Origin: SAR116 cluster alpha proteobacterium HIMB100
GTDB taxonomy: Bacteria; Pseudomonadota; Alphaproteobacteria; Puniceispirillales; Puniceispirillaceae
Direction: 5' to 3'
NCBI GenBank assembly: GCA_000238815.2
Contig: AFXB01000010.1
Coordinates: forward strand, 186,001-250,000
DNA length: 64,000 nt
Shown: piece after piece, positions 18,222-26,096 of the stretch
Layout: each line of letters begins with the position of its first letter
Position numbering within the stretch: the first letter of the stretch is position 1
Notes under the pieces: generated by a model
What the model was told of the DNA's origin: nothing
Database searches by the model: none
Seen by the model: the letters and a program-made list of their open reading frames with translations, nothing else
Program-made: the position numbers and the translations under genes

Positions 18222-18232
18222 ATCGGTAACTC

Positions 18233-18240
18233 GGGGGGGG
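18233..18240 (+). repeat. Run of eight G in the proteorhodopsin leader
   Basis: Eight consecutive G lie just downstream of the candidate -10 box and about 75 bases before the start codon. Such runs slip during replication and could change the leader or the promoter. Confidence 0.8.
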
Positions 18241-18276
18241 CCTTGTTCTGGCGGGTGCTGGTGCAAGGACAAAAAG

Positions 18277-18314
18277 TAGGACGTTCTAGAACGCGACGTT
18301 TGGGGAGTGTCCTA
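18277..18314 (+). promoter_or_regulatory. Palindrome and inverted repeat spanning the proteorhodopsin start site
   Basis: CGTTCTAGAACG (18282-18293) is a perfect 12-bp palindrome. Around it TAGGAC (18277-18282) can pair with GTCCTA (18309-18314), which covers the first base of the start codon and brackets the GGGGAG ribosome site at 18302-18307. It may be an operator or an RNA fold that limits translation. Confidence 0.45.
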
Positions 18315-19078
18315 TGTCAAAAAACCTTTTTAAGTTTGCTGCACCTGCAGCGCTTATGTCTATGATGCCTGCAATTGCTCAGGCTGCTAATCTGGAATCA
18401 GATGATTTTGTTGGTATCAGCTTCTGGCTGATCTCAATGGCTCTGGTTGCGTCAACAGCTTTCTTCTTCTTGGAAACACAGCGTGTAGCCGGTAAGTGGA
18501 AGACATCTCTTGTCGTATCAGGACTGGTCACACTGGTTGCCGCTGTTCACTATTTCTACATGCGTGACGTGTGGGTAGCCACAGGCGACACACCAACAGT
18601 CTATCGTTATATCGACTGGCTGATTACTGTGCCGCTGCTGATGATCGAATTTTATCTGGTGCTGCGGGCGATTACAAATGTATCAGGCGGCGTCTTCTGG
18701 CGTTTGACCATTGGTACATTGGTGATGCTGATCGGTGGTTACCTGGGTGAAGCTGGTTACATGAATGTAACACTGGGCTTCGTCATTGGTATGGTCGGTT
18801 GGGCCTATATTCTGTATGAAATCTTTGCTGGTGAAGCTGGCAAGGTGGCTGCAGAACATGCCAAGCCATCAGTACAGTCTGCTTATTCAACCATGCGCTG
18901 GATTGTAACAATCGGTTGGGCAATTTACCCGCTGGGTTACTTCTTCGGCTACATGGCTGGCGGTGCAGATATGGCATCACTGAACATCATCTACAACTTG
19001 GCTGACGTGCTGAACAAAATTGCGTTCGGTGTGATCATCTGGAACGTAGCTGTGACAGAAACAGAAGCAGAAGCCTAA
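18314..19078 (+). CDS. Proteorhodopsin, green-absorbing proton pump
   Basis: A 254-residue seven-helix retinal protein with an N-terminal signal peptide (residues 1-24). The pump residues are all present: proton acceptor Asp101 in RYIDW, donor Glu112 in EFYLV, retinal Lys235 in DVLNKIAFG, and His79 next to the acceptor. The spectral-tuning position (equivalent to residue 105 of the first described protein) is Leu109, which predicts green absorption. GGGGAG lies 6 bases before the ATG. A strong terminator follows, so it can be transcribed apart from the retinal operon downstream. Confidence 0.97.
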   Translation: MSKNLFKFAAPAALMSMMPAIAQAANLESDDFVGISFWLISMALVASTAFFFLETQRVAGKWKTSLVVSGLVTLVAAVHYFYMRDVWVATGDTPTVYRYIDWLITVPLLMIEFYLVLRAITNVSGGVFWRLTIGTLVMLIGGYLGEAGYMNVTLGFVIGMVGWAYILYEIFAGEAGKVAAEHAKPSVQSAYSTMRWIVTIGWAIYPLGYFFGYMAGGADMASLNIIYNLADVLNKIAFGVIIWNVAVTETEAEA

Positions 19079-23957: not shown

Positions 23958-24815
23958 ATGGACATATTGTCAACAACTGACCTCATCGCTCTTGTGGCGG
24001 TGATGGTGATTGGTCTGCCTCATGGGGCGTTTGACGGGGCGATTGCCTTTTGCCTGGGCTTTGGGCGCAGCCGTGGCAAAATGGCAGGGTTTTTAATCAT
24101 GTATCTGTTGCTGGCCGGCCTGTCCGCGCTGATTTGGTCTGTATCGCCCGTTTTTGCACTGGCTGCTTTTTTAGCCCTGACAGTGGTGCATTTTGGCACT
24201 GGCGATATTCAGCATCTGCCGCCCTTCGGGACCGGATGGGGTGCACGCGCCCTGAAGGCCTGCCAGATTCTGGTTCATGGCGGTGTGGTGACCATTTTAT
24301 TGCCCGTGTTTCATCAACAAGAGGTTGCTGGTCTGTTTACAATACTGGCCGGACCAAATGCGGTATTGCTGATGGACGCGTTGCAGCCGGCCTTTATCAT
24401 CTGGCTGGCTGCAGCAGCGGTTTATGGCCTTGCCGGATTGACAGGGCGCAGATATGGCCCCGCCGCGCTTGAGCTGGCCGGGCTGGCGATTGCGGTCTGG
24501 CTGCTGCCGCCGTTGGCCGGTTTTGCGTTATATTTCTGTGTGGTGCATTCGCGCCGTCATTTCACCAGCATCTGGACAGCGATGCAGATGTATGTGAGCC
24601 GCCGGGCCATAATGACCAGCGGGGCTGTGCTGACTGGTCTGTCCTGGGCGATGGGGGCAGGCCTATATGCCAGCCAGACCCTCACCGGCGACTTTACAGC
24701 AGATGAAGCCTTTATCCGCACGGTGTTTATCCTGCTGGCCGCGCTGACGGTCCCGCATATGCTGCTGGTCGACACGATGTATCGCCCAACCTTAACAAAG
24801 ATTGCCCAATCATGA
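23958..24815 (+). CDS. blh: Beta-carotene 15,15'-dioxygenase (Blh)
   Basis: A polytopic membrane enzyme of the Brp/Blh family that splits beta-carotene into two retinals, supplying the proteorhodopsin chromophore. Metal-binding histidines are seen in GLPHGAFD, VVHFGTGD, and VVHSRRHF. The frame is open from 23919, but the ATG at 23958 has AGGAC 7 bases upstream and gives an N-terminus like known Blh proteins (285 residues). Its stop overlaps the idi start by 4 bp. Confidence 0.93.
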   Translation: MDILSTTDLIALVAVMVIGLPHGAFDGAIAFCLGFGRSRGKMAGFLIMYLLLAGLSALIWSVSPVFALAAFLALTVVHFGTGDIQHLPPFGTGWGARALKACQILVHGGVVTILLPVFHQQEVAGLFTILAGPNAVLLMDALQPAFIIWLAAAAVYGLAGLTGRRYGPAALELAGLAIAVWLLPPLAGFALYFCVVHSRRHFTSIWTAMQMYVSRRAIMTSGAVLTGLSWAMGAGLYASQTLTGDFTADEAFIRTVFILLAALTVPHMLLVDTMYRPTLTKIAQS

Positions 24816-25852
24816 CCCCAGCAGATGACCTAAAGCAGGCGAAGACCGCTGATCGGAAAAACCGCCATCTGGATCTGGCCAAAGCCAATCTGCCGATGAC
24901 CGAGCATCCGCTGGATCACATCACTCTGCCTTATTGTGCATTACCGGAATGTGATCTGGCCACGATTAACCTCAGCACAACATTATTTGATTGCACGCTG
25001 GCGGCCCCCTTAATGATCACAGGCATGACCGGCGGAACTGACCGCGCACTGGCCATTAATCTAGTCCTGGCAGAAGCCGCCCAGACCCACCGCATCGCCC
25101 TGGGGCTGGGTTCACAGCGAGCCAGTCTGGAATCCGGCCAGAGCCAGGCAGAAGTGCGCCGCATCGCCCCTGATGCGGTTTTGGTTGGCAATCTGGGCGC
25201 CGCCCAACTGGCCGCAGCTGACGGGCTGAAGCTGGCACAGGCCGCAGTGGCAGATATCAAAGCCAATGCGCTGGCGATCCATTTAAACCCGCTGCAAGAA
25301 GCCATCCAGCCAGAAGGTGATCATGACTGGACAGGTGTTCTGGCGGCGATTGAAGCTGCGGTGACCACCCTGCCCTGTCCGGTTCTAGTCAAAGAAGTAG
25401 GCGCAGGTCTGTCCGCAGAGGTGGTCCGTAAATTGGCCAGCATCGGGGTGCGTCATATGGATGTCGCTGCAAGAGGCGGGACTAACTGGGCAGAGATAGA
25501 ACTGCAGAGACGCAGCGCAGAAGATGCGGCAACCTATCAGCCGTTTCTGTCTGCCGGACTGATGCTGCCAGACGCGATTATTCAGGCCCGTGCGGTGTCT
25601 CAGCAGCTCTGTCTGATTGCTTCAGGTGGCGTGCGTCATGGGCTGGATGCCGCAAAATGCCTGTATTTAGGCGCAGATATTGTTGGTATGGCTGGCCAGA
25701 TCCTGCGGGCTACAGAAGATGATGACACGAATCTGCGCCCTGACCGGCTGGCAGAGGAGCTGGAGCGGATCCAACACCAATTACGCCTGAGCCTGTATTT
25801 GTCTGGTTCACCCCATTTGCGTGCATTCAAACAGCTCAACTCTGCGCAGTAA
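24812..25852 (+). CDS. fni: Type 2 isopentenyl-diphosphate isomerase
   Basis: A 346-residue FMN enzyme that interconverts isopentenyl and dimethylallyl diphosphate, the substrates of CrtE. Family features are RKNRHLDLA near the N-terminus, the MITGMTGG block, ALGLGSQRASLE, and the barrel segments VLVKEVGAGLS and DVAARGGTNWAEIE. It is the last gene of the retinal operon and is followed by a perfect hairpin. Confidence 0.93.
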   Translation: MTPADDLKQAKTADRKNRHLDLAKANLPMTEHPLDHITLPYCALPECDLATINLSTTLFDCTLAAPLMITGMTGGTDRALAINLVLAEAAQTHRIALGLGSQRASLESGQSQAEVRRIAPDAVLVGNLGAAQLAAADGLKLAQAAVADIKANALAIHLNPLQEAIQPEGDHDWTGVLAAIEAAVTTLPCPVLVKEVGAGLSAEVVRKLASIGVRHMDVAARGGTNWAEIELQRRSAEDAATYQPFLSAGLMLPDAIIQARAVSQQLCLIASGGVRHGLDAAKCLYLGADIVGMAGQILRATEDDDTNLRPDRLAEELERIQHQLRLSLYLSGSPHLRAFKQLNSAQ

Positions 25853-25888: not shown

Positions 25889-26070
25889 CATCATATGGAT
25901 AAATTTTTTGAATAAAAATATACCCACACAAATCTAAATTAGCTCTGTGTGGGTATAAGGTAAGACTTGAAAAAGTCTTCCCCCCGATGGAGGTCTCGGT
26001 TTTCCTACTTTCCGAGACCTCCACTTTATTTGGGGGCCTGTAGTCTGGCTATCCCCTTTTCCATATGATG
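25889..26070. repeat. Inverted-repeat-bounded folded element between idi and moaE
   Basis: An 11-bp inverted repeat (CATCATATGGA at 25889-25899, TCCATATGATG at 26060-26070) bounds three nearly perfect hairpins. Hairpin 1 is 12 bp (25919-25930 with 25946-25957). Hairpin 2 is AAGACTT, GAAA loop, AAGTCTT (25962-25979). Hairpin 3 is 12 bp (25988-25999 with 26012-26023), enclosed by CCCCC (25981-25985) and GGGGG (26032-26036). It lies between the ends of two convergent genes and contains no convincing frame. It looks like a structured RNA or a small inverted-repeat mobile element. Confidence 0.7.
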
Positions 26071-26096
26071 AGGCGGCGTCCAGCAGCAGATAATGA

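Follow-up and report, generated by a model that had tools for sequence, protein, structure and literature searches.

Light capture by proteorhodopsin is widespread at the ocean surface. In the SAR116 bacterium HIMB100, the rhodopsin gene is the first in a cluster with retinal genes, and a strongly folded element of about 180 bp lies beyond the last gene of that cluster. What this element is, and which of its strands is under selection, is the question raised by the locus. A preliminary description, made from the letters of the DNA, had offered three readings: a structured noncoding RNA, a bidirectional terminator or insulator, and a miniature inverted-repeat element. The window, meaning the whole stretch of DNA that was analysed, covers 64,000 nucleotides of a contig of 1,167,490 bases, in a source genome of 2,458,945 bases and 10 contigs. 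The draft genome of HIMB100, of the SAR116 clade, is the subject of PMC3368413, in its accessible part. The genes and folded parts of the locus are as follows.

18314–19078, plus strand: rhodopsin gene (PF01036, E = 8.5e-48), first in the same cluster as the retinal genes.
24812–25852, plus strand: fni-like gene, a window open reading frame whose top-ranking family is FMN_dh (PF01070); it immediately precedes the element.
25889–25902 and 26057–26070: near-terminal inverted repeat (14 nt, 93%).
25919–25957: SL3 hairpin.
25962–25979: GAAA-capped hairpin, AAGACTT/AAGTCTT.
25988–25999 and 26012–26023: arms of the 12-bp hairpin.
25980–25985 and 26032–26036: C-run and G-run flanking the 12-bp hairpin.

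All the pairings claimed for the hairpins and the repeat are found in the window. The pairing had also been described as far above chance, and the folding energies agree, with z-scores of −7.73 on the plus strand and −7.15 on the minus strand and with none of 200 shuffles equally stable on either strand. The element sits, as described, between the retinal and moa genes, where the ends of fni (25852, plus strand) and moaE (26097, minus strand) face each other. The gene preceding fni is BCD/blh (PF15461). We take the gene at 24812–25852 to be fni, presumably encoding a type 2 isopentenyl-diphosphate isomerase.

Homologues of the element are found in a limited set of relatives. A DNA search of its own genome and 40 relatives, in which many weak short matches were set aside, gave strong matches in 12 relatives (E ≤ 6.8e-18), at one place each among the matches listed. 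The conserved unit among relatives spans about 25911–26023, and its core consists of the following parts.

25952–26023, plus strand: conserved 3′ UTR core (SL2, C-run linker, and SL1), 72 nt, in 22 f1 genomes.
25962–25979, plus strand: SL2, AAGACUU-GAAA-AAGUCUU; all cells pair on the plus strand, and one pair is altered on both sides.
25978–25988, plus strand: linker UUCCCCCCGAU, complementary to the G-run of the rhodopsin leader.
25988–26023, plus strand: SL1, a stem of 11–12 bp with the 12-nt loop UUUUCCUACUUU (26000–26011); one pair is altered on both sides.

A covariance model of the core gave 22 strong matches in 136 Puniceispirillales genomes (E ≤ 1.9e-9), one per genome and all in family f1, and a weak match (E = 0.004) in G025 of family f2. 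The core of the window itself scores 102.9 bits with the plus-strand model and 103.6 bits with the minus-strand model. A 20-letter pattern matched 18 records in a species-genome collection (84,980 species), once each; all are SAR116 or Alphaproteobacteria, and they correspond to genomes already found with the covariance model. The element pattern gave no hit in viral contigs and no match in phage or plasmid collections. At the Rfam 15 gathering score there was no match in the window or in 20 loci (19 of the element and one of the leader).

The core is far more conserved than fni. Its identity to the window is 73–97% in 21 relatives, while that of fni DNA is 48–68% in the 20 measurable ones; the 100 bases upstream of the core are 21–51% identical in 20 relatives, one more being cut by a contig end. 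All 22 core matches share a contig with blh, about 1.15–1.5 kb beyond its 3′ end, and lie on the strand opposite to blh when scored by the minus-strand model. The fni gene was read directly next to the core in 21 of the 22 loci; in G005, a run of N falls inside the fni frame, and the fni end is in place. Contigs end inside the element in G003 and G120 (L046 and L040), perhaps because of the strong hairpins.

The miniature inverted-repeat transposable element can be judged here. The 14-nt inverted repeat starting at 25889 and 26057 is what speaks for such an element, and the terminal repeat is indeed present in the window. However, its left arm is not conserved among relatives, its right arm belongs to an upstream motif that is conserved separately, and the arms are thus not kept as a pair. 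The genome-wide search for further copies found one per genome and no second, always at one syntenic place, and the phage and plasmid collections hold no match. A transposable element is therefore extremely improbable, and that claim falls. The C5/G5 stem fared partly alike: it is present in the window, but its G-run is not conserved in relatives. The element is conserved as an RNA and is not mobile. The structured noncoding RNA reading is strongly supported by homologues, covariation, and purifying selection; as to covariation, two core pairs are altered on both sides in the 22-row plus-strand alignment.

Diverged homologues should also be noted. The blh gene is present without a strong core match in 84 genomes, and the stretch beyond blh was taken from 38 of these. 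Three f2 genomes, G025, G130, and G034, carry diverged homologues at the same place and on the same strand (with a weak score for G130, E = 0.011). In G003, SL3 is cut by the contig end. None of the remaining 34 stretches exceeds 8.9 bits with either model. Beyond the element, and on the same strand as the retinal genes, the f2 genomes G025 and G130 have a photolyase-related gene, recognized in G025 by Pfam (DPRP; L070, 2173–3300) and in G130 by likeness (L071, 656–1501).

The far side of the element is variable. The neighbour there is moaE in five of the 22 loci, an enoyl-CoA hydratase-like gene in two, a divergent FMN dehydrogenase gene in ten, and a divergent FAA hydrolase-like gene in one; three loci have no clear adjacent gene, and one is at a contig end. 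Pfam was applied to a single representative of moaE, of the FMN dehydrogenase, and of the FAA hydrolase, and the enoyl-CoA hydratase-like assignment is our own reading. The neighbour points away from the element in 11 of the 22 loci. The position of the rhodopsin gene varies among SAR116 genera according to the accessible part of PMC8547437, and the changing far-side neighbours are in line with this variation.

This variability bears on the second reading, in which the element would serve only as a bidirectional terminator or insulator between convergent operons and would have no pairing partner. The position between fni and moaE, SL3 with its T-tract on the minus strand, and the stable SL1 on the plus strand all suit such a role. 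However, moaE adjoins the element in only five of the 22 loci, the neighbour points away in half of them, and the invariant 12-nt loop and linker are not needed for termination. The plus-strand tail after SL1 has at least five T in its first 9 nt in 12 of 21 loci and fewer in the other nine. We consider this reading improbable as the whole explanation. Of the terminator claim, the minus-strand part stands, through SL3 and its T-tract, strong in about half of the genomes; on the plus strand, the tail after SL1 is T-rich in only 12 of 21.

Which strand is selected can be judged from one-sided changes in the hairpins, since an A-C mismatch on one strand is a G-U pair on the other. Twelve SL1 cells over the 22 loci mismatch as A-C when read on the minus strand and form G-U when read on the plus strand, and none is the reverse; in SL2, there is one such cell and again no reverse. 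All 13 variant one-sided cells thus pair, as G-U, on the plus strand only. In the plus-strand alignment of 22 rows (20 distinct), all 314 cells pair. Both types of change occur in SL1, C replacing U at one site and A replacing G at two others, and the wobble changes are spread over genera g3, g5, g6, and g8, so a single mutational bias does not explain them. The sixth SL1 pair is a G-U wobble on the plus strand in eight of the 22 loci (L021, L027, L030, and L032–L036), and may be a tuned weak point.

Model scores point in the same direction. The plus-strand model outscores the minus-strand model in 20 of the 22 f1 loci, being lower in L019 (the window's own) and L026. For the three f2 homologues, the plus-strand model gives 30.2, 23.8, and 16.7 bits against 24.5, 16.0, and 11.2 bits for the minus-strand model; the two models also differ by an unsupported outer stem. 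This outer GGG/ACC stem of the minus-strand fold, with 22 of 65 lettered cells unpaired, was dropped. Since the core hairpins pair fully on the plus strand only, we read from the sequences that the core is selected as plus-strand RNA, that is, as the 3′ UTR of the retinal operon. The asymmetry of the wobble cells and the higher plus-strand scores speak against a minus-strand small RNA as the main reading.

The minus strand nevertheless has two candidate features of its own.

25911–25957, minus strand: SL3 hairpin (25919–25957) with T-tract, a probable intrinsic terminator of minus-strand transcription.
26060–26073, minus strand: near-palindromic upstream motif YTCACATNGTGGAA, in 14 of 14 representative loci.

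SL3 has been rebuilt with different sequence in different genera, its folding being retained. In an RNAalifold alignment of 13 sequences, six of 22 pairs have changes on both sides, and five of these are in SL3. The mean energy of SL3 is −14.0 kcal/mol on the minus strand and −10.7 on the plus strand, and the minus strand is more stable in 20 of 22 loci. On the minus strand, SL3 is strong (−18 or below) in 11 loci and weak in ten g8 genomes (−2.7 to −9.9 kcal/mol) and G021 (−4.0). At least six T in eight follow the SL3 position on the minus strand in 21 of 22 loci, and lie further out in G021. SL3 thus probably ends transcription coming from the other side. The YTCACATNGTGGAA motif has a log-likelihood of 73.5, compared with 34.5–43.0 in six shuffled sets that were run with fewer restarts, and starts 48–78 nt upstream of SL1 on the minus strand in all 14 representatives (loci L019–L039). 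It is a possible promoter or operator of a putative minus-strand RNA.

These features define a further reading, a free-standing minus-strand small RNA with its own promoter and SL3 as terminator, which would be a decoy for whatever binds the rhodopsin leader or an antisense RNA to the 3′ UTR. The T-rich stretch, the greater stability of SL3 on this strand, and the constant upstream motif all fit it, and the strand carries the leader's own words, AAAGUAGGA and UCGGGGGG. In G012, G025, and the ten g8 genomes, the upstream neighbour runs divergently, so that an own promoter would be needed there, and an Hfq gene is present in the source genome. However, the variation in SL1 and SL2 always leaves the plus strand paired, the distant homologues fit the plus-strand model better, and SL3 is weak in the g8 genomes and G021. 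We regard this small RNA as rather unlikely to be what the core is kept for. A decoy of the CsrA type (the CsrB/RsmY kind), prompted by GGA words, is excluded, because CsrA (PF02599) was found in none of the 136 genomes, while three of 14 control genomes were positive. In 16 genomes, each compared with 60 mononucleotide shuffles, the minus-strand RNA has no excess of pairing with the leader (z −1.39 to +1.02). The neighbour pointing away in 11 loci leaves room for an antisense RNA, and a minus-strand transcript ending at SL3 may coexist with the 3′ UTR as antisense or decoy.

At the other end of the cluster, the rhodopsin gene has a conserved leader, 7.7 kb from the element.

18231–18316, plus strand: rhodopsin 5′ leader, running as far as the start codon (AUG from 18314); leader model R2.
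18231–18238, plus strand: leader G-run UCGGGGGG, complementary to the C-run linker of the 3′ UTR.
18273–18281, plus strand: leader AAAGUAGGA, complementary to the SL1 loop.
18277–18314, plus strand: leader hairpin UAGGACGUUCU/GGAGUGUCCUA, in which the Shine-Dalgarno region is paired and which extends to the A of AUG.

The leader hairpin is predicted both in single folds and in the alignment; none of its 14 pairs covaries, because they are nearly invariant. A model of the 3′ part of the leader matched 22 of the 136 genomes (E ≤ 2.3e-9), always before the rhodopsin gene, which in G011 is cut by the contig end. Weak matches occur in nine further genomes (E = 0.045–0.34), with a second weak one in G118. 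Four leader pattern matches in viral contigs were not recovered by the leader model. The region upstream of the rhodopsin gene was read in 41 genomes, of which 20 have the leader, 20 do not, and one (G015) is cut off; those without it include the three f2 genomes carrying the diverged element. In our reading, the leader is kept with two N-terminal types of rhodopsin within genera g1 and g8. Genomes without the leader (L123–L142) have other rhodopsin leaders, namely TTAACGGAGG in the ten f1 genomes among them, CTCAACGTTGAGGAGTAT in G025, G130, and G034 of f2, and AAGGGGAGTT in three of four f4 genomes.

The leader and the element occur together in 18 genomes. The element alone was found in G009, G111, G115, and G116, whose assemblies lack the start of the rhodopsin gene, and the leader alone in G003, with its contig ending in SL3, and in G006, G011, and G016, where no blh was found. 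These eight single occurrences fit assembly gaps. In an RpoB tree of 31 f1 genomes, the 15 with leader or element and the 16 without are split by one branch (100/100). Since both lie on one branch, the joint occurrence amounts to one event, an origin or a loss, and independent co-gain of the two is not supported.

The two RNAs are complementary at two sites. The plus-strand SL1 loop UUUUCCUACUUU is complementary to leader AAAGUAGGA, which overlaps the 5′ arm of the leader hairpin, and the linker UUCCCCCCGA is complementary to leader UCGGGGGGA. Pairing was computed for 17 of the 18 genomes having both parts, the leader of G120 not being among the regions taken. The best leader site of the loop is AAAGUAGGA in 16 of 17 (−9.4 to −12.4 kcal/mol), with a better site elsewhere in G017, and this energy is reached by none of 20 control SAR116 5′ UTRs. 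The best site of the linker is the G-run in 15 of 17 (−14.6 to −23.2 kcal/mol), equalled by 0–2 of the 20 controls; in the other two, G019 and G117, the leaders given end before the G-run. Against shuffled leaders, the loop is equalled by 2–109 of 300 and the linker, in the 15, by 1–136 of 300, and the energies are only modestly special in this comparison because the words are simple. The best sites are at about −86 and −44; the one at −44 shares bases with the hairpin arm that faces the Shine-Dalgarno region and does not touch that region.

Changes at these sites give a mixed picture. The g8 leaders read AAGGUAGGG or AAGGUAGGA, changes that retain pairing as G-U. Immediately before CGGGG, both loci have U in G000, G004, G005, G007, and G021, and both have A in G001, G002, and G012. 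At the edge base of the G-run, compared in six g8 genomes, G118 and G113 match and four mismatch. For A, B, and C, the three groups with more than one member (14 genomes), the matched arrangement of linkers and leaders has the lowest summed energy of six permutations (−53.0, the next being −49.7); the own linker is preferred by leader groups A and B only, the linker of group E tying in the row of group A, and not by C (g8), D (G019), or E (G017). The SL1 loop pairing contains no double compensatory change, and the leader may keep AAAGUAGGA for its own hairpin. The f2 homologues gave no significant pairing with their own leaders (16–58 of 200 shuffles as good, five segments tested).

The words shared by the two loci are scarce elsewhere. 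In the window, TCGGGGGG occurs only at the leader G-run and, on the minus strand, in the element, and AAAGTAGGA only at the leader and the element. In the whole genome, AAAGUAGGA has five matches, including the leader site and the element (minus strand), and AAAGTAGGA has five as against 36 for its backwards control, two of them being the leader and the element. Over eight genomes of the genus, AAAGTAGGA has 50 matches in sum (backwards control 269), including eight leaders and six elements, and no set conserved across the genus was seen among the rest. One AAAGTAGGA match, in the source genome only, falls in the ribosome-binding region of a gene read as sdhB (L147, near 1500). The longest word common to element and leader is 9 nt in nine of 17 genomes (AAAGTAGGA in eight, TCGGGGGGA in one); shuffles reach that length in 0–6 of 60 cases for eight of these genomes and in 9 of 60 for G007. 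In G118, the common word is a different one, 10 nt long (2 of 60 shuffles), and the other seven genomes are unremarkable.

The computed conservation, strand of selection, leader, joint distribution, and complementarity lead us to propose that the element is a structured 3′ UTR pairing with the rhodopsin leader, in cis or as a 3′ UTR-derived small RNA, and tuning rhodopsin translation. We hold this to be somewhat probable. The leader hairpin, whose 5′ arm overlaps AAAGUAGGA, would hide the Shine-Dalgarno region. The C-run linker and the 12-nt SL1 loop would base-pair with the G-run, near the 5′ end of the leader, and with AAAGUAGGA. Either the mRNA would bend back so that its two ends meet, or a small RNA released from the 3′ UTR would make the contact; the pairing would remodel the leader hairpin, so that rhodopsin translation would be tuned to complete transcription of the retinal genes. 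We infer here that a single mRNA carries the rhodopsin gene together with the retinal genes, that leader and 3′ UTR come into contact, whether in cis or in trans, and that this contact has an effect of one sign or the other. As both sites lie upstream of the start region, blocking of the ribosome seems less likely than remodelling of the hairpin, and for the same reason we lean toward activation. With AAAGUAGGA held unpaired, the predicted access to the Shine-Dalgarno region rises modestly in 13 of 16 leaders, and access to the start codon changes both ways.

A stronger form may be imagined, in which the far end of the operon licenses rhodopsin translation. The leader would stay closed until the 3′ UTR pairs with it, and the minus-strand copy of the leader words would compete, making a switch of three RNAs. 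We consider this form unlikely as it stands. If it were true, the opsin would be made only when its pigment pathway is, the 3′ UTR being made after all the retinal-synthesis genes.

A matched leader and 3′ UTR would constitute a direct RNA link from the opsin gene to the pigment pathway, and it is testable, since HIMB100 is a cultured strain. In the accessible parts of the open-licence literature, including PMC5069720, PMC8547437, PMC12262181, and PMC11813361, we found no RNA regulator for SAR116 or proteorhodopsin. Among the 136 genomes searched with the models, G013 has neither the leader nor the element as a strong match. We take G013 to be strain IMCC1322. This strain expresses its pump regardless of light according to the accessible text of PMC12262181. 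If the two are the same, a light-independent expresser of the pump is without leader and element.

Three known systems may be compared, each as far as the accessible part of its source describes it. In icaR of Staphylococcus aureus, the 5′ and 3′ UTRs base-pair (PMC3868564). That pairing concerns one gene and targets the Shine-Dalgarno region, whereas the present one would span a multigene cluster and involve two sites ahead of that region, as well as a structured hairpin loop; no 3′ UTR word complementary to the Shine-Dalgarno region is found here. OppZ and CarZ of Vibrio cholerae are autoregulatory small RNAs derived from 3′ UTRs (PMC7398697). These RNAs, like the present element, come from an operon's 3′ end and pair with the transcript of their own operon, a pairing that is here predicted from complementarity. 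For OppZ and CarZ, release by RNase E and repression have been demonstrated, whereas the present case comes from computation alone and its partner is a dedicated conserved leader. The element is located in the 3′ UTR of the operon that it would regulate, assuming one mRNA from rhodopsin to fni, and the predicted base-pairing falls on the same leader sites in 16 of 17 genomes for the loop and 15 of 17 for the linker, weakly against shuffles. RNAs of this class usually have a Rho-independent terminator of their own at the 3′ end, for which the T-rich tail after SL1 would be a candidate counterpart in the 12 loci noted above. The third system is PcrX, an RNA at the 3′ end of an alphaproteobacterial phototrophy operon that acts on the same operon (PMC8625941). 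PcrX targets pufX, while the partner proposed here is the leader of the first gene in the rhodopsin cluster, and the likeness meant here is one of arrangement.
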